Assembly (NCBI RefSeq): GCF_000381265.1 | Contig: NZ_KB906270.1 | Span: 1-64,000, forward strand | Source: Curvibacter lanceolatus ATCC 14669 | Lineage (GTDB): Bacteria; Pseudomonadota; Gammaproteobacteria; Burkholderiales; Burkholderiaceae_C | Length of the DNA: 64,000 bases | Direction of reading: 5' to 3' | Shown: positions 2,544-64,000 of the stretch, in pieces | Layout: each line of letters starts with the position of its first letter | Numbering within the stretch: the first letter of the stretch is position 1 | Translations under genes and position numbers: made by a program | Notes under the pieces: model-generated | Told to the model about the DNA's origin: nothing | The model's input: the letters and a program-made list of their open reading frames with translations, nothing else | The model's database searches: none

Positions 2544-4451
2544 ATGTCTGCAGATTCACACACCGCTTCACGCCGCCAGCTGCTGCGTGCCCTGGCCGCC
2601 GCCCCCCTGTTCCCCCTGGGGGGGCTGGCGGGTTGCGCCAGCGCCCCGGCGGCGCGCCCCGCGGCCTTTCGCTCGGTGCGTTTTGAAGGCATGGCGGCGC
2701 CCACGCTGGCCAACCCCCAGGCCATGGCCACGACCACGGTGCAGTCGGCCCTGAGCGTGACCCTGGCCGACGGCAGCCAGCGCACCCAGGCCCTGGCCTA
2801 CCAGCCCTTTTTCATGACAGGCGAGATGCTGCCCGACGGGCAGGGCGGCCAGGTGCTGGCCGGCGGGTACTACGACATCCGCAACCAGCCCATCCTGGAC
2901 CGCTCGCTGCCCGGGCGCGAGCGCCATTTCTACTCTGACTGCCCCGATGGCTCCTCGCTGCTGACCCTGCCCAAAGCCCAGGTGGCAGGGGTCAAGGGCA
3001 ACACGGTGTTTGCCGTGGTGCAGTTCGAGTACGCCACGCGCAACCAGGCCGGCGCCGCCACCTACGGCCAGCTGCCTTCGCCCATCGCCGTGATCACGCT
3101 GGACCAGAACCCCGCCACCGGCGCGCTCAGCGTGGTCAAGTACCACAACGTGGACACCTCCTCGGTGCAGGGCCTGTGGATCACCTGCGGCGCCAGCCTG
3201 TCGCCCTGGAACACGCACCTGTCCAGCGAAGAGTACGAACCCGATGCCTTCGCCCTGGCCAGCAACGCCCAGTTCAAGGCCTTCAGCCAGAACCTGTATG
3301 GCGACGCCGCCAAGGCCAACCCCTACCACTACGGCCACCTGCCCGAGGTGACGGTGCTGCCCGATGGCACGGGCCGCATCGCCAAGCATTACTGCATGGG
3401 CCGCATCTCGCACGAGCTGGTGCAGGTGATGCCCGACGAGCGCACCGCCCTGATGGGCGATGACGCCACCAACGGCGGCCTGTTCATGTTCGTGGCCGAC
3501 CGGGCCCGCGACCTCTCGGCCGGCACCCTGTACGTGGCCACCTGGAAGCAGACCTCCGGCGTGGGCGCGGGTGCGGGTGACATCGGCTGGATCCGCCTGG
3601 GCCATGCGACCAGCGCCGAGATCCGCGCCCTGGTGGACGGCGGCATCCGCCCCGGCGACATCATGGACGTCAAGACCAGCGACCCGGCCGACGCCAACTA
3701 CACCCGCATCCCGTTCAACGGCAAGTTCAACTGGGTCAAGCTCAAGCCCGGCATGGAGAAGGCCGCCGCCTTCCTCGAAACCCACCGCTACGCCGCCCTG
3801 GTGGGCGGCAGCCTGGGCTTCACCAAGATGGAGGGCACCACGGTCAATGCCAAGGACAAGCGCGCCTACTCGGCCATGTCCTACATCCAGACCAGCATGC
3901 TCGATGGTTCGGGTGGCATCCGGGTGCAGGGCCCCAAGGCGGGCGCGGTGTACGAGCACGTGCTGCAAGGCGGCCAGAAGGACAGCAGCGGCCAAGCGAT
4001 CGACAGCGAATGGGTGTCCACCCACATGGAGCCGCCAGCCGCCCTGGTGGGCGTGGACCTGAAGACCCCCGATGCGCTGGGCAACCTGGCGCACGCCGAC
4101 CACATCGCCAACCCCGACAACATCAAGTTCTCCGAGAAGCTGCGCACCCTGTTCATCGGGGAGGACAGCGGCATGCACGTGAACAACTTCCTGTGGGCTT
4201 ACCACGTCGACACGAAGCAGCTCACGCGCATCCTGTCGTGCCCCTCGGGGGCCGAGTCGACCGGCCTGCATGCGGTGGACGAGATCAACGGCTGGACTTA
4301 CGTCATGAGCAACTTCCAGCACCCGGGCGACTGGGAAAAGCCGCTGCATGACAAGGTCAAGGACACGTTGGACCCGCTGGTGCGCGCCAATTTCAAGGAC
4401 CGCTTCGGCGCCTCGGTCGGCTACCTGACCGGGTTCACGCCCAAGGCCTGA
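2544..4451 (+). CDS. phoX: PhoX-family alkaline phosphatase (DUF839)
   Basis: 635-residue exported phosphatase of the PhoX/DUF839 family, metalloenzymes that release phosphate from phosphomonoesters. The start at 2544 opens a twin-arginine signal (SRRQLLRAL) that ends in a lipobox-like LAGC, so Tat export and possible lipidation are predicted. Family-like segments include PFFMTGEM, YYDIRNQPI, GRISHELVQVMPD, DATNGGLFMFVAD, FTKMEGTT and LFIGEDSG. Metal ligands (Fe/Ca in characterised PhoX) are inferred from the family rather than assigned residue by residue. A Pho-box-like repeat lies 87 bases upstream. The gene converges with the Lrp-type regulator. It is distinct from the PhoA-type enzymes further on. 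Confidence 0.88.
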   Translation: MSADSHTASRRQLLRALAAAPLFPLGGLAGCASAPAARPAAFRSVRFEGMAAPTLANPQAMATTTVQSALSVTLADGSQRTQALAYQPFFMTGEMLPDGQGGQVLAGGYYDIRNQPILDRSLPGRERHFYSDCPDGSSLLTLPKAQVAGVKGNTVFAVVQFEYATRNQAGAATYGQLPSPIAVITLDQNPATGALSVVKYHNVDTSSVQGLWITCGASLSPWNTHLSSEEYEPDAFALASNAQFKAFSQNLYGDAAKANPYHYGHLPEVTVLPDGTGRIAKHYCMGRISHELVQVMPDERTALMGDDATNGGLFMFVADRARDLSAGTLYVATWKQTSGVGAGAGDIGWIRLGHATSAEIRALVDGGIRPGDIMDVKTSDPADANYTRIPFNGKFNWVKLKPGMEKAAAFLETHRYAALVGGSLGFTKMEGTTVNAKDKRAYSAMSYIQTSMLDGSGGIRVQGPKAGAVYEHVLQGGQKDSSGQAIDSEWVSTHMEPPAALVGVDLKTPDALGNLAHADHIANPDNIKFSEKLRTLFIGEDSGMHVNNFLWAYHVDTKQLTRILSCPSGAESTGLHAVDEINGWTYVMSNFQHPGDWEKPLHDKVKDTLDPLVRANFKDRFGASVGYLTGFTPKA

Positions 4452-4494
4452 TCAGCCATTTAGACGGACCTTCTCGGCGGGCGCTCTGGTTGGG

Positions 4495-4998
4495 TCAGCG
4501 CGGGCTGCTGGCCTTGCCGCCGGCCGGTGTCAGGTGCCCCAGGGGCAGGGCACTGCTGGCCTTGACCTCGCCCAGCGAGAAGCTGGTGTGCAGGTCTTTC
4601 ACATTGGGCAGGTTGATCAGGCTTTTCAGCGCAAAGCGCGAAAAGCTGTCCAGGTCTTGGGCCACCACCTGCAGCTCGAAGGTGCCGGTGCCGCTGATGT
4701 AGTGGCAGCTGATCACCTCGGGCAACTGGCGGATTGCGTCCTCCAGCTTTTTGGTGGCGTCGCCGGTGTTGCGCTCGGCATCCAGCCGCACAAAGGCCAG
4801 CACGCCCAGGCCGATTTTTTGCCGGTCGATCTCGGCCCGGTAGCCCTTGATGAAGCCCGCCTCTTCGAGCGCCCGCACCCGGCGCCAGCAGGGGGCCGCC
4901 GACAGGCCCACGCGCTGCGCCAGCTCGGCGTTGGTCACCCGGGCATCCGATTGCAGTTCGTTCAGGATGGCGATGTCGAATTTGTCGAGGGAGTCCAC
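4495..4998 (-). CDS. Lrp/AsnC-family transcriptional regulator
   Basis: 167-residue regulator. The N-terminal winged helix (about residues 3-60) reads DKFDIAILNELQSDARVTNAE and continues through RVGLSAAPCWRRVRALEEAG, the standard AsnC-type DNA-binding segment. The C-terminal RAM ligand-binding domain follows, with ISCHYISGTGTFELQV. GTG at 4998 is chosen because upstream sequence, although open, does not resemble the family; the Shine-Dalgarno is weak. The ligand is probably an amino acid, as in the family, but cannot be named. The gene converges with phoX and lies downstream, in the same orientation, of the phosphatase operon. No target operator was identified. Confidence 0.9.
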   Translation of the reverse strand: MDSLDKFDIAILNELQSDARVTNAELAQRVGLSAAPCWRRVRALEEAGFIKGYRAEIDRQKIGLGVLAFVRLDAERNTGDATKKLEDAIRQLPEVISCHYISGTGTFELQVVAQDLDSFSRFALKSLINLPNVKDLHTSFSLGEVKASSALPLGHLTPAGGKASSPR

Positions 4999-5110
4999 GG
5001 GCTGAGGGGGCGAAAAGGTCGATCGGTTGGGGTGAGGGCCGCAGCATAGCCGACAAACAAAAAGAAAGGCCGGCGCAGGGCGCCGGCCTTCGGGGGCTGA
5101 ATCCAGGGGC

Positions 5111-5848
5111 TCAGTCGAGGTAGTCGGAGTAATCCTTCTTGCCGTAGCCATCCAGCCGCGTCCAGGGTGGGGTGGCGGGGGCCGGGATGGCCTGCACCAC
5201 GGTCTTGCGCGAGCCCTGGGGCCCGCTGGACTCCACGCTCACCGGCACCATCAGCTTGTGGTTCCAGACCACGGTCAGGCGGTTGTTGGCCTCCTGGCGT
5301 GTGTAGGTGGTGGTGTCGCCCACCGGCGCGGCGGCCTTGAGCTGCTGCAGCACGGCCGGGTCGATCAGGTGCCAGGCGGCGGGCCAGGAGCCATCGAAGC
5401 CCACGTTGCCGTAGTCGGTGCGGGCGATGTCGATCACCACCTTGTCTTCGGCCGACACCAGGCGCAGGCGCGGCTCGCCGCGCTCGTCGCGGGTGACCCA
5501 GCGTGCGGCGGCGGCCACGTCCAGGTGCTTGTGGGCCTTGTGGCCCTTGGCGTGCTCTTCGTCCGAGTGGGCGTGCGGCGGGATCACACGTTCGATCCAC
5601 ACCATCTGTGGGCGGCGGTGCACGCGCTCGCTGAACTCGGCGGTGCGCTTGACGCCATCGGCGCCCAGCGACACGCTGGTGTGGCGCACCTGCAGGTCCA
5701 GGCTGGGGCCGGAGCCGACGGCCTGGGCCCCACCCTGGGCCCCAGCTTGTGGCGTGCTCTGGGCCGTCGCCCAGGGCGCTGCGGCGGCCAGGCCGCAGGC
5801 CAGTGCGGCCTGCAGCAGGTGGCGGCGCGATGCGGTGTGGGTGCGCAT
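5111..5848 (-). CDS. Tat-exported His-rich protein of the phosphatase operon
   Basis: 245-residue protein I do not recognise. The N-terminus has a twin-arginine signal (ASRRHLLQAALACGLAAAA, cleavage likely near AQS), so it is probably periplasmic. A cluster of His and acidic residues, PHAHSDEEHAKGHKAHKH, lies near residues 91-108 and looks able to bind metal. No catalytic motif was seen. It is the third gene of an operon with two alkaline phosphatases; its ATG overlaps the upstream stop (TGATG at 5846-5850), indicating translational coupling. A role in metal supply to the phosphatases, or as a phosphate-starvation exoprotein, is inferred only from context. Confidence 0.8.
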   Translation of the reverse strand: MRTHTASRRHLLQAALACGLAAAAPWATAQSTPQAGAQGGAQAVGSGPSLDLQVRHTSVSLGADGVKRTAEFSERVHRRPQMVWIERVIPPHAHSDEEHAKGHKAHKHLDVAAAARWVTRDERGEPRLRLVSAEDKVVIDIARTDYGNVGFDGSWPAAWHLIDPAVLQQLKAAAPVGDTTTYTRQEANNRLTVVWNHKLMVPVSVESSGPQGSRKTVVQAIPAPATPPWTRLDGYGKKDYSDYLD

Positions 5849-7284
5849 CAGAAGCCGAAGGCCTGGCGCACCAGGGCGTTCACGCGGGTGTTGTCCAGCG
5901 TGCCCTTGAACGGGGCCTTGCCGGCGCCGGTGGCGAACAGCATCACATCGCCGCCGCCGTGGGTTTCCGAGCCGGCGCTGCCCAGCTGCACGCCCACTTC
6001 CTGCAGGTAGTCCTTGTTGCCCGAGGTGTCGACGTTGCTCAGGTCGTCACGCACCGACTTGCGCGGGCCGCCGCCGTTGCCGAACACCAGGGTGGTGTAG
6101 GGCTTGCCGTCGGCCGCCAGGGCGGTCTGCTTGGTGCGGTTGTTGGTGCTCTTGCCCAGGATGTCGTTGCCCTTGTGCGAGTAGCCGTTGAAGGCCATGG
6201 TGTGGTCGTGGTCGGCCGTCACCACCACCAGGGTGTTGCTCAGGTCGACCTTGGCCAGCACGGCCTTGATGGCGTCGTCGAAGGCGATGGTGTCGGCCAG
6301 GGCGCGCTTGGCATTGGTGCCGTGCAGGGCGTGGTCGATGCGGCCGCCTTCGACCATCAGGAAGTAGCCGCTGCTGTTTTTCGACAGCACGTCCACCGCC
6401 TTGGTGGCCATCTGGGCCAGGCTGGGCTCCTTGGCCGGATCGCGGTCCAGTTCGTAGGACATGTGGCCTTGCGACAGGGCCTGATCAAACAGGCCCAGCA
6501 GGCGGCCGTTGGGGGCTGCGTTGAGGCTGGCGAGGTCGTTCACGAAGGTGTAGCCCTGGCCCTGCATCTCGGCCACCAGGTCGCGCCCGTCGGGGCGGCC
6601 CTTGGGCGTGGTGCTGGCGTTGAAGGGGCGCCAGAAGTAGCTGATGCCGCCCAGCATCACGTCCACGCCCTTGCCCAGCGCGGTGTTGAAGCCGGCGCCA
6701 CCGGGCACGGCCTGGCGCGAGATGTGGTACTCGGCATCGCGGTGGCAGATGTGCGAGTAGGTGGCGGCCGGGGTGGCGTGGGTCAGGCGGGCGGTGGTCA
6801 CCACGCCGGTGGCCTTGCCGGCGGCAATGGCCTGTTCCAGCAGCGTGGGCACGCTGGCGCCGTTGCCGCTGGCCGGGCAGTTGTTGATGGCGTTGCTCAC
6901 GCTGGGGCTCACGCTGGTGTCGGCGCCGGGCTTGATGGCCTGGGTGTTGCCGTCCATGGACAGCACTTCGTTGCGCATCTTCACGCCGGTCATGTAGGCC
7001 GCCATCGAGGGGGCGCTGTCGGTGGTCTGGGCGTCCAGCGAGTAGGTCTTGATGCGGGCGGTGCGCGGCAGGGTTTCCATGGTCAGCTGGCCCGACTCGC
7101 CGTATTTGTAGATGCGGCTGGCGGTGACGGTGACCGGGCCCATGCCGTCACCGAGGAAGAAGATCACGTTCTTGGCTTCACCGGCGGCGAAGGCCTGGCC
7201 GGCGCACAGGGCGCCCAGGGTGAGGGCCAGCAGGCGGTGTGCAAAGCGCGGGCCACGGGGCAGGGAGAGGTTCAACGGGTTCAT
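5848..7284 (-). CDS. Alkaline phosphatase, PhoA superfamily (second paralogue)
   Basis: About 478 residues; periplasmic alkaline phosphatase hydrolysing phosphomonoesters with Zn/Mg. After a Sec signal (ending GQAFAAG) come FFLGDGMG (metal Asp), TDSAPSM (nucleophile Ser), THATPAATYSHICHRD, MVEGGRIDHALHG, TADHDHT and SETHGGGDV, the full set of family metal and catalytic segments. ATG at 7284 gives a normal signal. An alternative ATG at 7321-7323 overlaps the stop of the upstream gene (TGATG), mirroring the overlap with the downstream gene. The protein is clearly paralogous to the upstream phosphatase, consistent with a tandem duplication followed by divergence of the export signal. Confidence 0.92.
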   Translation of the reverse strand: MNPLNLSLPRGPRFAHRLLALTLGALCAGQAFAAGEAKNVIFFLGDGMGPVTVTASRIYKYGESGQLTMETLPRTARIKTYSLDAQTTDSAPSMAAYMTGVKMRNEVLSMDGNTQAIKPGADTSVSPSVSNAINNCPASGNGASVPTLLEQAIAAGKATGVVTTARLTHATPAATYSHICHRDAEYHISRQAVPGGAGFNTALGKGVDVMLGGISYFWRPFNASTTPKGRPDGRDLVAEMQGQGYTFVNDLASLNAAPNGRLLGLFDQALSQGHMSYELDRDPAKEPSLAQMATKAVDVLSKNSSGYFLMVEGGRIDHALHGTNAKRALADTIAFDDAIKAVLAKVDLSNTLVVVTADHDHTMAFNGYSHKGNDILGKSTNNRTKQTALAADGKPYTTLVFGNGGGPRKSVRDDLSNVDTSGNKDYLQEVGVQLGSAGSETHGGGDVMLFATGAGKAPFKGTLDNTRVNALVRQAFGF

Positions 7285-57377: not shown

Positions 57378-57950
57378 ATGGCATCTGTCAATAAAGTCAT
57401 CATCGTCGGCAACCTGGGGCGCGACCCCGAGATCCGCACCTTCCCCAGCGGCGACCAGGTGGCCAACGTCACCATCGCCACCACCGACCGCTGGAAAGAC
57501 AAGCAGTCGGGCGAGATGAAGGAAGCCACCGAGTGGCACCGCGTGGTGTTCAACGGCCGCCTGGCTGAAATCGCAGGCCAGTACCTGCGCAAAGGTTCGC
57601 AGGTTTATGTGGAAGGCTCGCTGCGCACGCGCAAGTGGACCGACCAGGCCGGCGTCGAAAAATACAGCACCGAAATCCGCGCCGACCAGATGCAGATGCT
57701 GGGCAGCCGCCAAGGCATGGGCGGTGGCGGCGGTGACGAGGGCGGCAGCTATGGCGGCGGTCAAGGCGGTGGCTACGGTGGCGGTCAGGGTGGCGGCCAA
57801 GGCGGTGGCTACGAAAGCGCCCCGCGCCGCGCCCCGGCTGCAGCCCCTGCCGCACGCGCCCCGGCCCCACGCCCGGCCCCAGCCCCAGCCCCCATGGCCA
57901 GCCGTCCGTCGTCGGGCTTTGACGACATGGACGACGACATCCCCTTCTGA
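57378..57950 (+). CDS. ssb: Single-stranded DNA-binding protein
   Basis: 190-residue protein. The OB fold (1-110) starts [20 protein letters not shown] and contains [20 protein letters not shown] and [17 protein letters not shown] Gly/Tyr-rich and then Pro/Ala-rich linker follows (about 113-175), ending in the acidic partner-binding tip DDMDDDIPF. Intact tail and fold suggest the housekeeping copy. GGAG lies 12 bases before the start, and a terminator follows. Confidence 0.97.
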
Positions 57951-59644
57951 GGATGAGCTTTACCGCACCTTGATGAGGTGCGCCGACAGGGCCTCATGCC
58001 GGCAACGGCTGGCATGATGAGCCGCTGGGCCCCATGGTCGCGGGGCCGTTTTTGAACGTGGGGCGCCGACTGGATTCGACATGGGTGACAACCCATCCAC
58101 TTGGTCCACAAGGGGGCTGTCTCTGCCAAGGGACGATGGCCTCGTGCGCAGGCCAACGTGCCAGAAGATCCACCTGACCCGCTTTCACATGCGGGTTGCA
58201 AGCCCGGCCTGTGGTTTCGCGACACCCGCATCGAAGGGTGTGGCCCCCCCCGGCGGGCCGGGCACCGTTCTGCACTTTCCAAGCTCTCAGGCCATCGGGC
58301 CCGGTTTGTCCCCGATCTCGGTGGCAGTCGATCAACTTCTGGTTCCTCCTGCGCGGGTCTTCTTGTCTGGCGAAAGAGCCCGCGCTGTCCCGGGCGGGTC
58401 GACGCCCTGACCATGCCCCCCGTGCGTGCCTTGCTGCGCCACCCGCCGGTCTCCCAGGCAGGGGTGGGCGCTCGCTGGAGCGTCGGCCGGCCAGACCCCA
58501 CGCGTGCGACACCTTCATGAAAACCATGTTTCCAGTCGTCACGCCCATGGCTATTCTTTGAATGCATTGGCAAATTTTTACTTTTCCACCTCAATTTCCG
58601 CAGTGATTGAGTGCTTGTATTTGATAAATATGTAAAAAAATATCAATTTAAAGATGAAAGGTATAAAATATGCGCGTGAAGCATCAGTGAGTGGTCTTCT
58701 TGACAAGGAAGGAAGCAAATTGTTACATTCTGTAAGTGACCGTGCTGATGACGGTGGCACCGGGGCCTCAAAGCCCGATGTCTGCGACGCCGGTCTGAGT
58801 TCTCCGGCCCGGTGTAAGGGGATGGACGTGGCTAGAGGGCTCGTCACACCCCTTGCCCCATCAACTGATTCGGCTGACAGACTGATGGCACAGGAGGCGG
58901 TGATCGCCGCTGGAATCCATGACTGACATGAAGAGCGTCGACAGGCTCTTGCCTGGGCTGGATACGGCATCGACCACGGGGCTGCATTGGAGCCCGGTGC
59001 AGCCTGAAGTTCTGGATTGCATGACGCGGGATCACGGTCGCGCCGAACGGCCTCCGCGAAAGCCCGGGTGCCGTGTGGGCCCTGCCACCGCACAGTCTGC
59101 TTCAAAGCAGCATGGCATTCTCCCATCGGTGCCGCTTTCATCTCCAGAACTGGAGTGCGGTCCGTGGTCATCGGGTGTGTGTCCGGCGACCCGGGCTGGC
59201 TGCCGCGATGCCGCTCGCCGTGAGCCTGGCGCGCGCGCCCCCCGCCAATCAGTGAACTATTACCGTATATGAAAAGATTGATACATCATTTATTCCCCCC
59301 CTCATGACGGCATCCGTCTGCGTTTCTAGAATTCGAGACAGTTTGCTAAAACCATCGGTCGGCCACGGGGTCGAGGTGGTCTGTCGATCCCTTGGCAAGG
59401 CCCGAAAATGCCCCATATCCCGAACGAACCGCGACAGCCTCCCAGCATCGGATCCACCATGAGTCAACGCACGTATGCCAGCGCAGCCTGCGCCATCAGG
59501 ATGAAGCGCCTGCCAAGTGACCTCCGGGCAGAAGGCCTTCTGCCGGGGGGGGCTCGCCTGCGGTCTGGGATGGCTTCGGTTGGGGTGGCGACTGGAGTCT
59601 GCATACAGGTTCATGGTGACCATGGGCTCCGGCGCGGCGATGTC
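57951..59644. other. Gene-poor stretch after ssb
   Basis: About 1.7 kb without a convincing gene. It contains the ssb terminator and, just after it, a segment GACTGGATTCGACATGGG that recalls the 5' end of tmRNA, but no matching 3' part. A hairpin ATGGGT-GACA-ACCCAT lies at 58081-58096. An A+T-rich island runs at about 58560-58740 and includes a perfect TTGACA (58700-58705) with TACATT (58724-58729), 18 bases apart, which may be a rightward promoter. Open frames here are short or arginine-rich shadows; one leftward frame (59249-59623, CGGAG before its ATG) is doubtful. Confidence 0.5.
58028..58053 (+). terminator. Terminator after ssb
   Basis: GGCCCC (58028-58033) and GGGGCC (58042-58047) form a six-pair stem with an eight-base loop, followed by GT5. 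It closes the ssb transcript and marks the left edge of a gene-poor region. Confidence 0.8.
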
Positions 59645-59830
59645 CTAAGGAGGCAGTCGGATGAGCACGCCAAGAATCTCGAGATAGGCGGAAGAACAGA
59701 AAGGGCAGCCGAAATGACAGGCGGTGGGAATGCACGACATCCATCGCCGCGGCGGCTGCTTGCTCAACTGCGTGCCACATTGGCTGCACACCGTGAAGAA
59801 GCTGGCTCTTGACAGTTCTGCGTCATACAT
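59645..59830 (-). CDS. Small Cys4 zinc-ribbon protein
   Basis: 61-residue protein with two CxxC knuckles, CSQC (15-18) and CPFC (42-45), spaced as in a zinc ribbon, and additional Cys33 and Cys38. GGAGGG lies five bases before the ATG, a very strong ribosome-binding site. The C-terminus is hydrophobic (LEILGVLIRL). No known family could be named; it may bind nucleic acid or a protein partner. Its ATG is only 14 bases from the start of the divergent winged-helix gene, so the two transcripts must overlap or be mutually exclusive. Confidence 0.5.
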   Translation of the reverse strand: MYDAELSRASFFTVCSQCGTQLSKQPPRRWMSCIPTACHFGCPFCSSAYLEILGVLIRLPP

Positions 59831-59844
59831 AAAACCCTCCAATC

Positions 59845-60300
59845 ATGGAATCCATATACCCTTCGAATTGTGATGACCCACTGATGCCTGTATTAATAAG
59901 TCAACCCGGCCAGTCCTCGGAATTCACATCGACCAAAGCATCAAATGGTATGGATGAGAATCCCAAAAAACCGCTGTCTGCCGCGTATTTCCGTTTTCTT
60001 CAAGTGGCGCGGGTCATTCAGTCAGAAACCTTGTCGAATCATCTGGATGTCAATTCATTGGCGCTTCTGGAGACAATCACCCTGTGCTGGTTCGAGGGCA
60101 AGCCCCTGACGATCAGCCAGGTCATCGGCCTGAGCGAACTGGGTTCGCCGGCCACTTTGCACAAGCGCCTGGCCAAGCTTCGGGAAAACGACCTGGTCAT
60201 TGCCCAATCCATCGAAGGCGACACCCGCTCGAAATTGATTGTTCCGTCCGAAAAATCGATGGCTTATTTTGAGCGGCTTGGTTATTACTTCAATAATTGA
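59845..60300 (+). CDS. Winged-helix (MarR-like) transcriptional regulator
   Basis: 151-residue protein. An N-terminal variable part (1-40) is followed by a winged-helix domain: LDVNSLALLETITLCWFEGK, LTISQVIGLSELGSPATLHK (recognition helix) and RLAKLRENDLVIAQSIEGDT with the wing, then RSKLIVPSEKSMAYFERLG. This resembles MarR-type regulators that respond to ligand or partner. Starts at 59845, 59884 or 59950 are all possible, with no clear Shine-Dalgarno. Its 3' end overlaps the antisense membrane-protein gene. Confidence 0.75.
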   Translation: MESIYPSNCDDPLMPVLISQPGQSSEFTSTKASNGMDENPKKPLSAAYFRFLQVARVIQSETLSNHLDVNSLALLETITLCWFEGKPLTISQVIGLSELGSPATLHKRLAKLRENDLVIAQSIEGDTRSKLIVPSEKSMAYFERLGYYFNN

Positions 60301-60888
60301 TTTCTTGGATGTGATTCGGAGTATGAATATCAAAAAACGAAGCTGAATAACCGCGAGTCCGATTCCAAGCAGATTGCTGATCAAATCTTGGCGAAAATAA
60401 TCGGTATACGACAACGGTCCTTCGATGATTTTATTTATTGCGCTGAATAGCAGCGATTGAAAGAGCGAATAGCAAAAGGCCAGACTGGAAAATTTTCCAA
60501 TGCTGAGTCGGATCAGGTTCGGGTCGATTTCGAGCAGTTTGAATGACGCCATTCGGCACACCAATGGTGTCACTGCAAGCAGGATCTGAGCCCATTGCTG
60601 GCTCATGAGGGGCAGTGCCTCGTGCACGCCCTGCGCCATGTAGCCCTGCGCCACGCCGATGGCGATGGCACCGCTTTTCGAAAAAATAACCACCAGGATG
60701 AAGCTGATGCCGCGATTCAGGGTGCTCAGCACCAGTTCCGCATCGCTGTGCTGCACCGAAAGAAGGGCTGCTGAGTGCTCCAACACACAGGCCAGCATGA
60801 AGATGACGCTGCAGATGCAGAAGTGCTCAAGACCAAAGCGCCAAAACTGGGGCCCCTGCTCCCTCGCCCATTCGAGGTAACGCTTCAT
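60055..60888 (-). CDS. Multi-pass membrane protein of unknown function
   Basis: 277-residue frame. Residues 1-195 look like a genuine integral membrane protein: helices at about 22-42, 55-78, 95-112 and more to LGIGLAVIQLRFLIFILRIT. About 80 further residues continue antisense to the winged-helix gene and read like a shadow (NQFRAGVAFDGLGNDQVVFP), so the natural stop may have been lost. I do not recognise the family; the layout recalls membrane sensor modules. It lies 203 bases after the PAS gene on the same strand, so the two may form one unit. Confidence 0.6.
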   Translation of the reverse strand: MKRYLEWAREQGPQFWRFGLEHFCICSVIFMLACVLEHSAALLSVQHSDAELVLSTLNRGISFILVVIFSKSGAIAIGVAQGYMAQGVHEALPLMSQQWAQILLAVTPLVCRMASFKLLEIDPNLIRLSIGKFSSLAFCYSLFQSLLFSAINKIIEGPLSYTDYFRQDLISNLLGIGLAVIQLRFLIFILRITSKKSIIEVITKPLKISHRFFGRNNQFRAGVAFDGLGNDQVVFPKLGQALVQSGRRTQFAQADDLADRQGLALEPAQGDCLQKRQ

Positions 60889-61091
60889 CGCCGGGCCAGG
60901 GAGGAGGGGGGCGTGTCACGCGTTGGGGCCTGACGACCCTCTGCCGCCGTGAGTCTGTTCCAGCTGGGGGGGGCGGGTGAGCCATGAGTGGCCCGATGTG
61001 TGTGAGTTTGTTTTTTTCATTTCCCTCTCCTGTGCTCTGGATCCTCCGTGAAGCTCTGCCGGAACTCCAGAGGTGCATGGCTGCTTGGCGC

Positions 61092-61916
61092 TCAGGTCTC
61101 GGCTTTGTCCAGGCCGTAGACCTCATTGAAATACTGACGCAAATCTTCGTCGGTCTTGATGTGGCTTCTCTTCTGCTTTTCCGCTTCCATGACGGAATGT
61201 GTGACGTCGCGGAAGAACAAAATGCCGGAGATGGATTCTGAACGGATGGTCATGCGTGACAGTTGAACCAGCGTCTTCCGGGGCCAATCGATCTCGATGA
61301 TGCATTGGTAGTTGGGTGTATTCAAAGATGAGTTCAGCATCTTCTCGTAGAGGTATCCGAATTGTGGAAACGGCTTGAGCGGTTGGCAGTTCAATTGGAC
61401 GGCGGCCAGGATTTCCGCCGGTGGCATGTGCATCAGATCCTGGATGTGCAGGTCGAAAAGTGTGCTGAAACTTTCGTTGATGCGGGTGCATTCTCCGTTG
61501 GCATCCAGCAGAACCCAGGCGTCCAGGGCGGGCTCGCTGGCGGCGACAGGCCCTTTGGTCTTGGTGTTGTGTCGCACCTGACCACGCATGGGTCGCGCGA
61601 CGATGGCTTCTTCAGGTGCGTGTGCTCGACCTGGTTGTCCTAACCACGAGGTCTCTGGTGCCACGAAGGCCGTGGCGTTGGGTGAGGGCTGGATCCGCAG
61701 GTGCGCGGAGAGCCACTGCAACACGGCCCTGATGGGGTGGATGGCACCCCTGAAGCCTGGTTTCAGGGGGACCTCGAACGAGGGCCAGTGGAATTCTGAA
61801 TCGGCAAAAAATGGTTTGGAGCGCTCTTTGGCACGGCCGATCCTCCCGCTTCTGGCCGCGGTCTCTTCCCGGGTGAATGGGTGAAGGCGCGTTGGTGTCT
61901 TGGCAAAGACGTGCAT
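61092..61916 (-). CDS. PAS-domain protein without output domain
   Basis: 274-residue soluble protein. The N-terminal 120 residues are not recognised. A PAS fold follows (about 128-250): DAWVLLDANGECTRINESFS, TLFDLHIQDLMHM, MLNSSLNTPNYQCIIEIDW and SISGILFFRDVTHSVMEAEK, the last being the typical PAS C-cap. No kinase, GGDEF or DNA-binding output domain is present. GGAG stands eight bases before the ATG. Adjacent genes encode a membrane protein and a winged-helix regulator, so a small signalling unit is possible. Confidence 0.75.
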   Translation of the reverse strand: MHVFAKTPTRLHPFTREETAARSGRIGRAKERSKPFFADSEFHWPSFEVPLKPGFRGAIHPIRAVLQWLSAHLRIQPSPNATAFVAPETSWLGQPGRAHAPEEAIVARPMRGQVRHNTKTKGPVAASEPALDAWVLLDANGECTRINESFSTLFDLHIQDLMHMPPAEILAAVQLNCQPLKPFPQFGYLYEKMLNSSLNTPNYQCIIEIDWPRKTLVQLSRMTIRSESISGILFFRDVTHSVMEAEKQKRSHIKTDEDLRQYFNEVYGLDKAET

Positions 61917-62842
61917 AGGAACTCCAACTCTTGGTATTTATTGTTTACAACCCTCAAGCACACTGGCATATATATCATTTATAATATTTAATCATTTTTT
62001 CAAATGACTAAATTGATTTTCCCCCGTCGCCAATAGTGCTTGTTTATATAATTTATAAGTAAAATCGGGGCTTGTCAAACGATCTTTGAAAAGCGCGGCA
62101 CAGCGTCAGGGCGCGGCCTCAATGCTGGCTGGGGGATGCTTCCACCGTGCCCTGCGATGCGGGGGGATGGTGCTGGCATGGAGCCGCTCTCGGCGGCGTT
62201 CGCCGCGAGCTTTATTGGGGAAGCCCGCCAGCGCTGGGGGCCGGTCTTTGCGGTACCCGCGCCTGTCCATGCAGCTCGCTGAAAGTTGGGACAGAATCAG
62301 ACCGTGTTTTGCTGTGATTCAAGAGTCCGGCGAGCAAGTGTTGGAGATTCCCGGTTTGGCGAATGAGCATTTCGGGCCGGTGAGGCACCTCTTTTCGCAT
62401 TGGAGGAATGGGTTGAACCTCGTGAGCAAATATTTCATATTTGATTTTTGAGTGTCACTTTCATTCACTCGGAGCAAAACTTTCCGGTGAAAGGCCCCCG
62501 CCGACCTTTGCTTCGAATTTGCCGTGGAAAAGGCCTGCTGAGTTGGCAGCGCCATGGACTTCGAGGCGAGGCTGGGCCCCTCAGATTCACGGCATGGGGC
62601 CTTGGTTTCGCTTCCATTCTGGCGGCGTCTCCAGGCGCGTTGGTGTGCGAACCGCCGTTGCGCAGGTTGTGCAACCGCTGCGCGGTGTCCTTTGTGGTGG
62701 GGCTTTCGTGACAATGTTGTCTCAGCGGGCGGGCGTGCGCGGGTGGGCCGGGCCAAAGCCTGTAACATCGCGTAAGTTTGCTTTGGGGCGGCCTGTGTCT
62801 GCGCCAAGGTCGGGGGCTGCGGCTGTCACGAGGATCACGCAA
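61917..62842. other. Gene-free, partly A+T-rich stretch
   Basis: About 930 bases. The left part (about 61930-62080) is strongly A+T-rich with several TATAAT-like hexamers (for example 61980-61985), probably promoter DNA for the leftward PAS gene. The remaining GC-rich part holds only open frames that read as shadows (low-complexity Arg/Ala/Ser). GAGGA just before 62843 is the ribosome-binding site of the next gene. Confidence 0.45.
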
Positions 62843-64000
62843 TTGAAGTTACTGAAGCTAAAACATTGGGTTCCTGCCCTTGGCCTGTTGGCCCTGGCGG
62901 GTTGCGGCGGCGGCAGCACCGGGGACACCTCCAACGTGGGGGCGGTCACGGGCACGCAGCAGTTCATGGACGGCATCTGGACCGGTACCACTGGCACTGG
63001 CTCGGCCCAGCGCAATGTGGTGGGCTATGTCAGCGGTGGCAGCGATGGCAAGGGCGGAGATTTCTACCTGGCCAAGGGCGCTGCCGGCACCTCGGGCTAT
63101 GACAGCATCTACGGGCTGCTGCGGGTCGATGTGGCCTCGGTGGCGGCCACGAATGTCACCTATTTCTCGGTGCAGGACGGCAAGTTCGCCACCGGGCTGA
63201 GCCTGGCCGGCACGGCCAGCACCAGCACGGGGGCCGCGCGCACCGACACCTTCAGCGGCAACTACAGCAACCCGGCCAACACGGCAGCGGCCACCGGTGC
63301 GGTCACCTCGATCAAGATGACCTACAGCACCTTGAACAACTTTGGTGCCACCTACGCCAAGCTGCAGGGTAAATACACCGGTGGCGCGCTGTTCGGCGGC
63401 AGCTGGGTGCTGACCGCAGACGCGGTGGGCAACCTGAGCGGCACGGTGTCGGGTTGCACCGTGGCCGGCACGGCCACGCCCCAAACGGTGGCAGCCAACA
63501 GCACGGCATCCCCTGCGATCTATAACGTGGTGCTCAACCTGTCGGGCGGTATTACCACCTGTGCGGCCACCGGAACCACCCAATCCGGTGTTGCCTTCCT
63601 GAAATACGACACGGTGGGCAACAAGACCGGCATCTGGATGTTCACCCGCAGCAGTACCACCACCCTGAACACCTATGTGCTCGATGGCGTGCTGGTGGCG
63701 GGCAGCACCTCAACGCCGGCGACCACCCAGCAGGTGGCGGCGGGCTTCTGGAAGAGTTCCACCAGCACCAGTTCGGGCGATGTGTTCGCCATGGTTCTGC
63801 CGGACAACTCGTATTTCTTCTACAAGCGAGTGGGGGGCGGCTATGACGCGCTGTATGGCAATCTGGTCGTCGCCACTGGCACCAGCATCCTGAGTTCGAC
63901 CGATGGTGTGTACTTTGCCAACCAGAACCTGGCGTCGACCCAGTACACGGGGGGCATCCTCATCAGCGGTGATGTGCGCACCCAGAGCAGCCTCACCGGC
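62843..64000 (+). CDS. Large repeat-containing lipoprotein (partial at window end)
   Basis: At least 386 residues, open to the window end. It uses a TTG start: GAGGA stands eight bases before it, and no ATG or GTG fits. The lipoprotein signal reads LKLLKLKHWVPALGLLALAG followed by Cys21 and a Gly-rich linker. The mature part is rich in Ser/Thr/Gly with recurring GIW/GFW modules, for example DGIWTGTTGTGSAQRNVVGY and AGFWKSSTSTSSGDVFAMVL followed by PDNSYFFYKRVGGGYDALYG. Such modules, about 150-260 residues apart, look like repeated beta-rich domains known from Burkholderiales surface lipoproteins. Function unknown. Confidence 0.8.
   Translation, partial: MKLLKLKHWVPALGLLALAGCGGGSTGDTSNVGAVTGTQQFMDGIWTGTTGTGSAQRNVVGYVSGGSDGKGGDFYLAKGAAGTSGYDSIYGLLRVDVASVAATNVTYFSVQDGKFATGLSLAGTASTSTGAARTDTFSGNYSNPANTAAATGAVTSIKMTYSTLNNFGATYAKLQGKYTGGALFGGSWVLTADAVGNLSGTVSGCTVAGTATPQTVAANSTASPAIYNVVLNLSGGITTCAATGTTQSGVAFLKYDTVGNKTGIWMFTRSSTTTLNTYVLDGVLVAGSTSTPATTQQVAAGFWKSSTSTSSGDVFAMVLPDNSYFFYKRVGGGYDALYGNLVVATGTSILSSTDGVYFANQNLASTQYTGGILISGDVRTQSSLTG

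Follow-up and report, generated by a model that had tools for sequence, protein, structure and literature searches.

Near the right-hand end of a 64,000-nucleotide stretch of Curvibacter lanceolatus ATCC 14669 (contig NZ_KB906270.1, positions 1 to 64,000; hereafter the window), the DNA between ssb and a lipoprotein gene raises a question: Do the genes found there form a single system? A first-pass annotation had read this interval as an accessory island with an unfamiliar set of four genes, which encode a PAS-domain protein (PAS), a membrane protein (MEM), a winged-helix DNA-binding protein (wHTH) and a Cys4 zinc-ribbon-like miniprotein (Cys4), and had proposed that together they could be one signaling circuit. 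We find that the four genes exist and that each has homologs elsewhere, so the set is less unfamiliar than supposed, although none of the four proteins clears a curated Pfam or NCBIfam cut-off. Within what was searched, the quartet does not hold together as a conserved system. The wHTH and MEM families, by contrast, are a recurring neighbor pair; this pair is more interesting than the quartet, and the window holds a deviant copy of it. With evenly balanced confidence, we favor the reading that an acquired block carries a diverged, convergent copy of a split regulator, in which a membrane sensor with the predicted fold of an energy-coupling factor (ECF) transporter S-component would control wHTH.

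Recurrence of the wHTH-MEM pair

Of 200 genomes from the bacterial family, 15 have wHTH relatives, the window's own genome counted. The MEM family was first met as a protein of ~190 amino acids with several transmembrane segments, encoded beside wHTH in 4 of the first 13 neighborhoods of wHTH relatives that we read, and a four-row MEM profile finds it in 15 of the 200 genomes at E≤0.01, with strong matches (E<1e-10) in 12. All 12 of these genomes also carry wHTH; of the 14 wHTH genomes besides our own, two (G097 and G173) have no strong MEM match. Coordinates place the two genes side by side in seven of these 12 genomes (G189, G087, G057, G128, G161, G184 and G092).

The association extends across the order. 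Among 384 genomes, wHTH was found in 39 (E≤1e-5) and MEM in 31, with both in 26, neither in 340, wHTH only in 13 and MEM only in 5; the window's own genome is counted among the wHTH-only carriers because its MEM gene is too diverged. MEM lies within 1 kb of wHTH at 26 of the 37 MEM places entered (39 were listed), in 21 of the 26 genomes that carry both, and these 26 adjacent pairs occur in several orientations: 13 with wHTH followed by MEM, 11 divergent, 2 with MEM followed by wHTH, and none convergent.

A scan of named genomes with the wHTH alignment gave 104 relatives, of which 80 were kept, nearly all labeled Limnohabitans, Comamonadaceae or Burkholderiales. MEM lies directly downstream of wHTH on the same strand in 44 of these 80 loci, and in 36 of the 44 (starts chosen by a script) the genes share 4 nt (ATGA), an overlap suggestive of translational coupling between wHTH and MEM in many Limnohabitans-type loci. 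Of the 44 coupled wHTH genes, 21 share a TCGATAAAAT-like -10 element upstream, near the start codon, a position that suggests very short wHTH leaders. By eye, no operator palindrome is visible upstream of these 21 genes, and no TCGATAAAAT-like element in the corresponding gap of the window. In many of the 21 aligned loci (L167-L246) the element lies ~10 nt ahead of the wHTH start codon.

Two aspects of these data tell against our reading. An adjacent MEM was not found in 36 of the 80 loci, some of which are short contigs; wHTH can stand alone. In addition, the co-occurrence statistics take no account of shared ancestry, so that the Fisher P of 7e-26 cannot serve alone as a test; pairing is better argued from the adjacency of the genes in several arrangements.

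A lineage-specific block flanked by ssb and a lipoprotein gene

In the window, the pair lies within a block at 57953-62702, which we delimited by comparison with congeners in a set of nine genus genomes, our own included. In the two closest relatives, G194 and G202, the ssb-lipoprotein interval is only ~230 bp and 57953-62702 is absent. In G194 (ssb identity 98%), DNA identity extends through 57952, breaks off and restarts at 62703, while in G202 it restarts at 62691, 12 bases earlier; past 62.7 kb, on the lipoprotein side, identity is 88% in G202 and 93% in G194. A DNA search detected the block in none of the eight congeners. The block is lineage-specific DNA that replaces a short spacer, and the idea of an accessory island at this site stands. 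Its extent is another matter: 57953-62702 is private, but the island as first drawn ran from 57951 to 62842, and 62703-62842 falls outside the block. This shared right-hand stretch begins at 62691-62705 and ends at 62842 in five of the eight congeners. On the left, the relatives' terminator after ssb is replaced by a different hairpin (58028-58052), and the edge lies either at 57953 or directly after that hairpin. The features of the locus are as follows.

57378-57950, + strand: ssb, left flank, a core gene present in 9 of 9 genus genomes
57953-58052, no strand: left edge of the private stretch, with a terminator-like hairpin (58028-58047) and T run in place of the relatives' ssb terminator
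58053-59640, no strand: ~1.6 kb without a recognizable gene; its frames have no family or outside homolog
59645-59842, - strand: small Cys4 zinc-ribbon-like protein; a paralog with the four cysteines in common adjoins the PAS paralog on contig C19
59843-59949, no strand: intergenic gap from which Cys4 and wHTH diverge, candidate for a shared promoter
59950-60300, + strand: wHTH, a MarR-like winged-helix DNA-binding protein of 116 amino acids, 45-50% identical to its nearest relatives
60301-60888, - strand: MEM, a diverged stand-alone membrane protein, MASE1-like or of predicted S-component fold (profile score; model matches to S-components)
60055-60300, - strand: run-on of the MEM frame, 246 nt, antisense to the wHTH gene; the stop is missing where homologs end
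61092-61916, - strand: PAS-domain protein without an output domain (sub-threshold PAS matches; paralog on C19)
61917-62702, no strand: A+T-rich right arm of the block, upstream of the PAS gene, with promoter-like minus-strand sites at 61.97-62.08 kb
62703-62842, no strand: conserved upstream region of the lipoprotein gene, outside the block; shared with G194, G202, G200 and G201 and partly with G203
62843-64000, + strand: lipoprotein gene, right flank, continuing beyond the window end

Rather than matching the genome average, the composition of the block is an outlier against bases 1-57950. The GC content of 58053-62702 is 0.566, compared with a mean of 0.679 (standard deviation 0.014, minimum 0.652) for equal-sized windows of that reference, and its tetranucleotide distance is 0.460, compared with 0.146 (standard deviation 0.021, maximum 0.195). 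A composition profile confirms the A+T-rich dips noted earlier, which it places near 58.6, 59.85, 60.3 and 62.0 kb. Two marks of a genomic island are present: absence from the same site in close relatives and atypical composition.

We compared 83 stop-to-stop frames of the block (at least 35 codons) with the loci of other genomes. Matches elsewhere came from wHTH, MEM, PAS and Cys4, together with out-of-frame or antisense shadows of the wHTH gene; the other matches hit only two copies of the window itself (L041 and L140), which were left in the search set. Six other frames gave no PHROGs family, and ten gave no Pfam family bar one match at E 0.09.

The ssb-lipoprotein site itself varies, because G200 and G201 carry different genes there (by eye, a short-chain dehydrogenase and a small exported protein; L066 9360-11120 and L067 2910-5035). 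In the remaining four congeners, no lipoprotein match is present in the 10-12 kb examined.

The window copy: diverged or decaying?

How well preserved is the pair in the window? The wHTH reading frame opens at 59845, and its homologs start near 59950; the extension 59845-59949 has a third-position GC content (GC3) of 0.43, unlike the wHTH gene. The LGSPATLHKR core of wHTH is intact. The MEM gene (60888-60301, minus strand) encodes a distant member of its family, scoring 23.8 bits against a 19-sequence profile (E 4e-5 in the six-frame set), whereas the best of 1000 shuffles reaches 11.0 and the reversed sequence 8.5. A direct MEM search of the genome contigs gave no match.

The MEM frame stays open to 60055, while homology ends ~16 nt from the wHTH stop; the resulting 246-nt run-on crosses the 3' part of wHTH in antisense, and its codon-position GC is not gene-like. 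Matches of this long frame to wHTH loci in tblastn come from the antisense run-on, and we excluded them from MEM homology. Transcripts of the two genes would overlap tail to tail at 60055-60300.

Several properties of this copy speak against the reading we favor. In the order-wide and family profile searches, run with tighter limits or with the four-row profile, the window MEM is unlisted, and an early hhalign comparison with the four-row alignment gave a probability of 6.8% (E 0.005). By eye, it differs from family alignment A10 at six of eight invariant or near-invariant positions (N29, P48, G66, M159, G162 and D163, among which are the proline of LPAG and the first two residues of GDxxG), and it has no stop of its own. 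The two window genes are adjacent and convergent (59950-60888), a rare order of which we met one other case, in the congener G092 (L150). There, at 4636-6320, wHTH sits between two MEM genes; it converges with the first, which it does not overlap, and diverges from the second.

The window MEM gene is thus either reversed in orientation and diverged, or decaying. The latter would fit an explanation in which the whole block is decaying acquired DNA, its genes are remnants and the locus is functionless. The block does lack a recognizable gene over ~2.8 of its 4.75 kb and is absent from all eight congeners, and MEM lacks its own stop and most of the residues that are invariant in the family, on account of which the window copy may indeed be altered or decaying. 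But none of the four frames is interrupted, the recognition region of wHTH has not changed, and the wHTH and MEM cores retain a coding-like codon-position GC (GC3 0.65-0.66, second-position GC2 0.37), and we consider a functionless relic unlikely.

PAS and Cys4 form a second pair

The remaining two genes lead elsewhere. The window PAS protein is below all PAS cut-offs (TIGR00229, 13.1 vs 22.9), and its closest relative, encoded on contig C19 of the window's own genome, is a PAS protein that stands alone, is 36% identical over 111 amino acids and passes TIGR00229 (23.7 vs 22.9). Other PAS matches sit in frames of 510-983 codons, the one in G022 aligning to the N-terminal part only. On C19 the PAS gene is followed after ~160 nt by a Cys4 gene, whose product has all four cysteines and WM..IP in common with the window Cys4. 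PAS and Cys4 make up a second pair, of which C19 holds one paralogous copy. A solved-structure search with the PAS pair gave no match. The C19 pair (L081 6110-7309) also lies in a low-GC patch.

If instead all four genes worked as one circuit, as first proposed, they should keep company. The layout is compact, with Cys4 and wHTH diverging from one gap and PAS upstream of MEM on one strand, which favors the proposal. Yet PAS and Cys4 gave no match in any of the 80 wHTH loci at E 1e-3 (a looser search of these loci gave three Cys4-like matches at E 0.03-0.05), and around the C19 pair no wHTH or MEM match is present in the 13 kb read. At E≤0.01 the Cys4 family turned up at 24 places, spread over 22 of 399 family genomes, and few of these matches were strong. 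Apart from the window and C19 there are 22 such places; we read seven in full (L142-L148, one being our genome's own copy on contig C7), and none has this PAS gene adjoining. An eighth place, L149, gave no match to the Cys4 profile. In the loci searched the quartet does not co-occur, whereas the wHTH-MEM pair does, and we regard a single four-gene circuit as very unlikely. A small gene of unknown function adjoins both the third Cys4 relative in our own genome (L143 528-842) and its G194 counterpart (L142 6769-7035).

Predicted fold of MEM

We next consider what kind of protein MEM could be. The model of a Limnohabitans MEM has a mean predicted local distance difference test score (pLDDT) of 86. 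In VIA-align 2, its 14 best rows are ECF S-components or S-type subunits, including the bare-titled entries 4huq and 4m5b; Z runs from 13.1 (root-mean-square deviation [rmsd] 3.3, 158 residues aligned) down to 8.9, and the next row is at 7.8. The window MEM gave a weaker model (pLDDT 76, predicted template-modeling score 0.58), whose best row is also an S-component (Z 11.1, rmsd 4.3, 159 aligned). Among five family members scanned against MASE1 (PF05231), one matches over 166 residues at E 7.6e-5, the best score of 22.4 bits being below the cut-off of 29.8; the window MEM matches no Pfam family. From these models, MEM is predicted to have the S-component fold; in sequence, its family bears a weak resemblance to MASE1 sensor domains.

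The fold assignment has its own counterweights. Foldseek against the PDB found no match to the family model at E≤0.001, the best (0.12) being an ECF S-component. The 16 rows of the window model at Z over 8 comprise 12 S-components (two of them BtuM) and four Lnt structures, and that model was built on family rows, hence is not independent. According to the tool's own note, Z under about 13 may reflect a common helical arrangement.

The same predicted fold would suit another role: MEM as a solitary transporter S-component for uptake, with wHTH merely regulating the MEM gene. Another family member has a sub-threshold match to CbiM (E 3.8e-4), and the divergent arrangement, typical of local regulators, accounts for 11 of the 26 adjacent pairs. 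For docking on the ECF module, S-components use an AXXXA motif in helix 1 (PMC11109136). In the MEM family, AXXXA occurs near the N terminus in 20 of 33 rows in several registers rather than at the fixed place in helix 1 expected of an ECF S-component, and the window row has none; this, together with the sub-threshold MASE1 match of a different member, argues against the uptake role, which we hold to be quite unlikely.

A proposed split membrane-to-DNA regulator

The reading we favor assigns MEM the role of sensor and wHTH that of output. MEM would bind a small ligand or report the state of the membrane, and contact between MEM and wHTH would alter the hold of wHTH on DNA, at minimum in the divergent promoter region of the wHTH gene. 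A second input, redox or ligand, could come from the PAS protein, whose gene lies on the same strand ~200 nt upstream of the MEM gene, provided that the window copy works. In E. coli DgcE, PAS domains follow the MASE1 domain in one chain. A precedent for the contact is the binding of the DgcE MASE1 domain by RdcA (PMC6510439).

How does this arrangement compare with known systems? MASE1 (PF05231), like MEM as we propose it, is an integral membrane sensory domain that, in the case of DgcE, is contacted by a separate protein (PMC6510439). Unlike MASE1 proteins, MEM is free-standing at ~190 amino acids, carries no GGDEF, EAL or kinase in its chain and has a DNA-binding partner. The predicted fold is shared with ECF S-components and with 5TMR histidine kinases; PMC11109136 reports it in the latter and in MreD, and describes the AXXXA docking motif of 5TMR receptors as not fixed, as in the MEM family. 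A word search of that paper met no mention of MASE, helix-turn-helix or transcription. Unlike 5TMR histidine kinases, MEM has no kinase, and its partner is the product of the separate wHTH gene.

The co-component systems VtrA/VtrC and ToxR/ToxS resemble the pair in being small paired genes, one for DNA binding and one for sensing (PMC9214523). They differ in that wHTH has no membrane stretch and its partner is a multi-pass membrane protein. In VtrA/VtrC and ToxR/ToxS, it is the DNA-binding protein that crosses the membrane, and the receptor lies in the periplasm.

With MarR-type regulators (ZitR/AdcR), wHTH shares the winged-helix region: a PDB profile search gave a ZitR/AdcR MarR-type match at E about 0.005. 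Unlike them, it is only 116-123 amino acids long and falls below the Pfam MarR cut-offs where it matches at all. The MarR model is not among the Pfam matches of the window wHTH, the best of which scores 13 bits (HTH_20, cut-off 27), and a relative in L080 scores 17.4 for MarR against a cut-off of 24.6. A link of wHTH to defense systems was dropped; it rested on one Csa3 match at E 0.0045, which we take as a generic winged-helix match.

More broadly, wHTH and the free-standing S-fold MEM could be an undescribed, order-wide split membrane-to-DNA unit, a 'transceptor' without a kinase, in which a transcription factor is captured or released directly by a vitamin-transporter-like protein and of which the island version is antisense-overlapping, convergent and PAS-extended; we offer this tentatively, as possible rather than probable. 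No description of the pair was found by title or abstract in searches of an open-access library, nor anything joining MASE1 with the MarR family and an operon, or Limnohabitans with MASE1; subscription papers lay mostly outside this search, which makes it weak evidence of novelty. Membrane sensors of the S-component/MASE1 type are known fused to kinases or cyclic-di-GMP enzymes. If the proposal is true, a stand-alone sensor encoded beside a transcription factor gene, often translationally coupled to it, would be a very short signaling path. The unit would be frequent in Limnohabitans-type freshwater bacteria and genetically easy to test, and a vague accessory island becomes a defined hypothesis.

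Origin of the block

Where did the block come from? In a tree of 73 wHTH proteins, 22 of them from the 80 named loci, the window copy falls inside a supported 23-row Limnohabitans-type group (100/97), and the two wHTH copies of the congener G092 fall elsewhere. The tetranucleotide distance of the block to Limnohabitans-type loci is 0.22 at best (median 0.28), compared with 0.46 to its own window. The block was probably acquired from a Limnohabitans-like relative. Some caution is due: the likeness in tetranucleotides is confounded by GC, and the window wHTH branch is long (1.13) and rests on few columns, because of which the donor and the placement of wHTH are unsure.

The first-pass annotation saw no mobility genes, and our searches bear this out. 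No recombinase family was found among the scanned frames, and no transfer genes, tRNA, tmRNA or terminal repeats in the window or block; the integrase, attachment-site and tRNA signature of an island is absent. A mobile element with end repeats was rejected, as no repeats were seen and the block DNA has no second genomic copy (best other match E 0.05). Neither the block DNA nor the PAS protein gave a plasmid match, and the wHTH protein gave no phage match; we set aside a phage or plasmid origin on these searches, in which some proteins were run against part of the collections. A candidate tmRNA at 58059-58090, where GGGGCGCCGACTGGATTCGAC (58059) resembles a tmRNA 5' end, was discarded as a chance likeness: ARAGORN and Rfam were negative, and the real tmRNA is on contig C27.

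The rows nearest to the window copy in the wHTH tree (L211, L213 and L217) have no MEM beside wHTH, which also counts against the favored reading. One of these loci, L213 of a Limnohabitans metagenome-assembled genome, has two wHTH copies at 3536-5513 that flank a gene MerR-like by eye, with a hemW-like gene adjoining; a hemW-like gene adjoins wHTH in several of the loci read.

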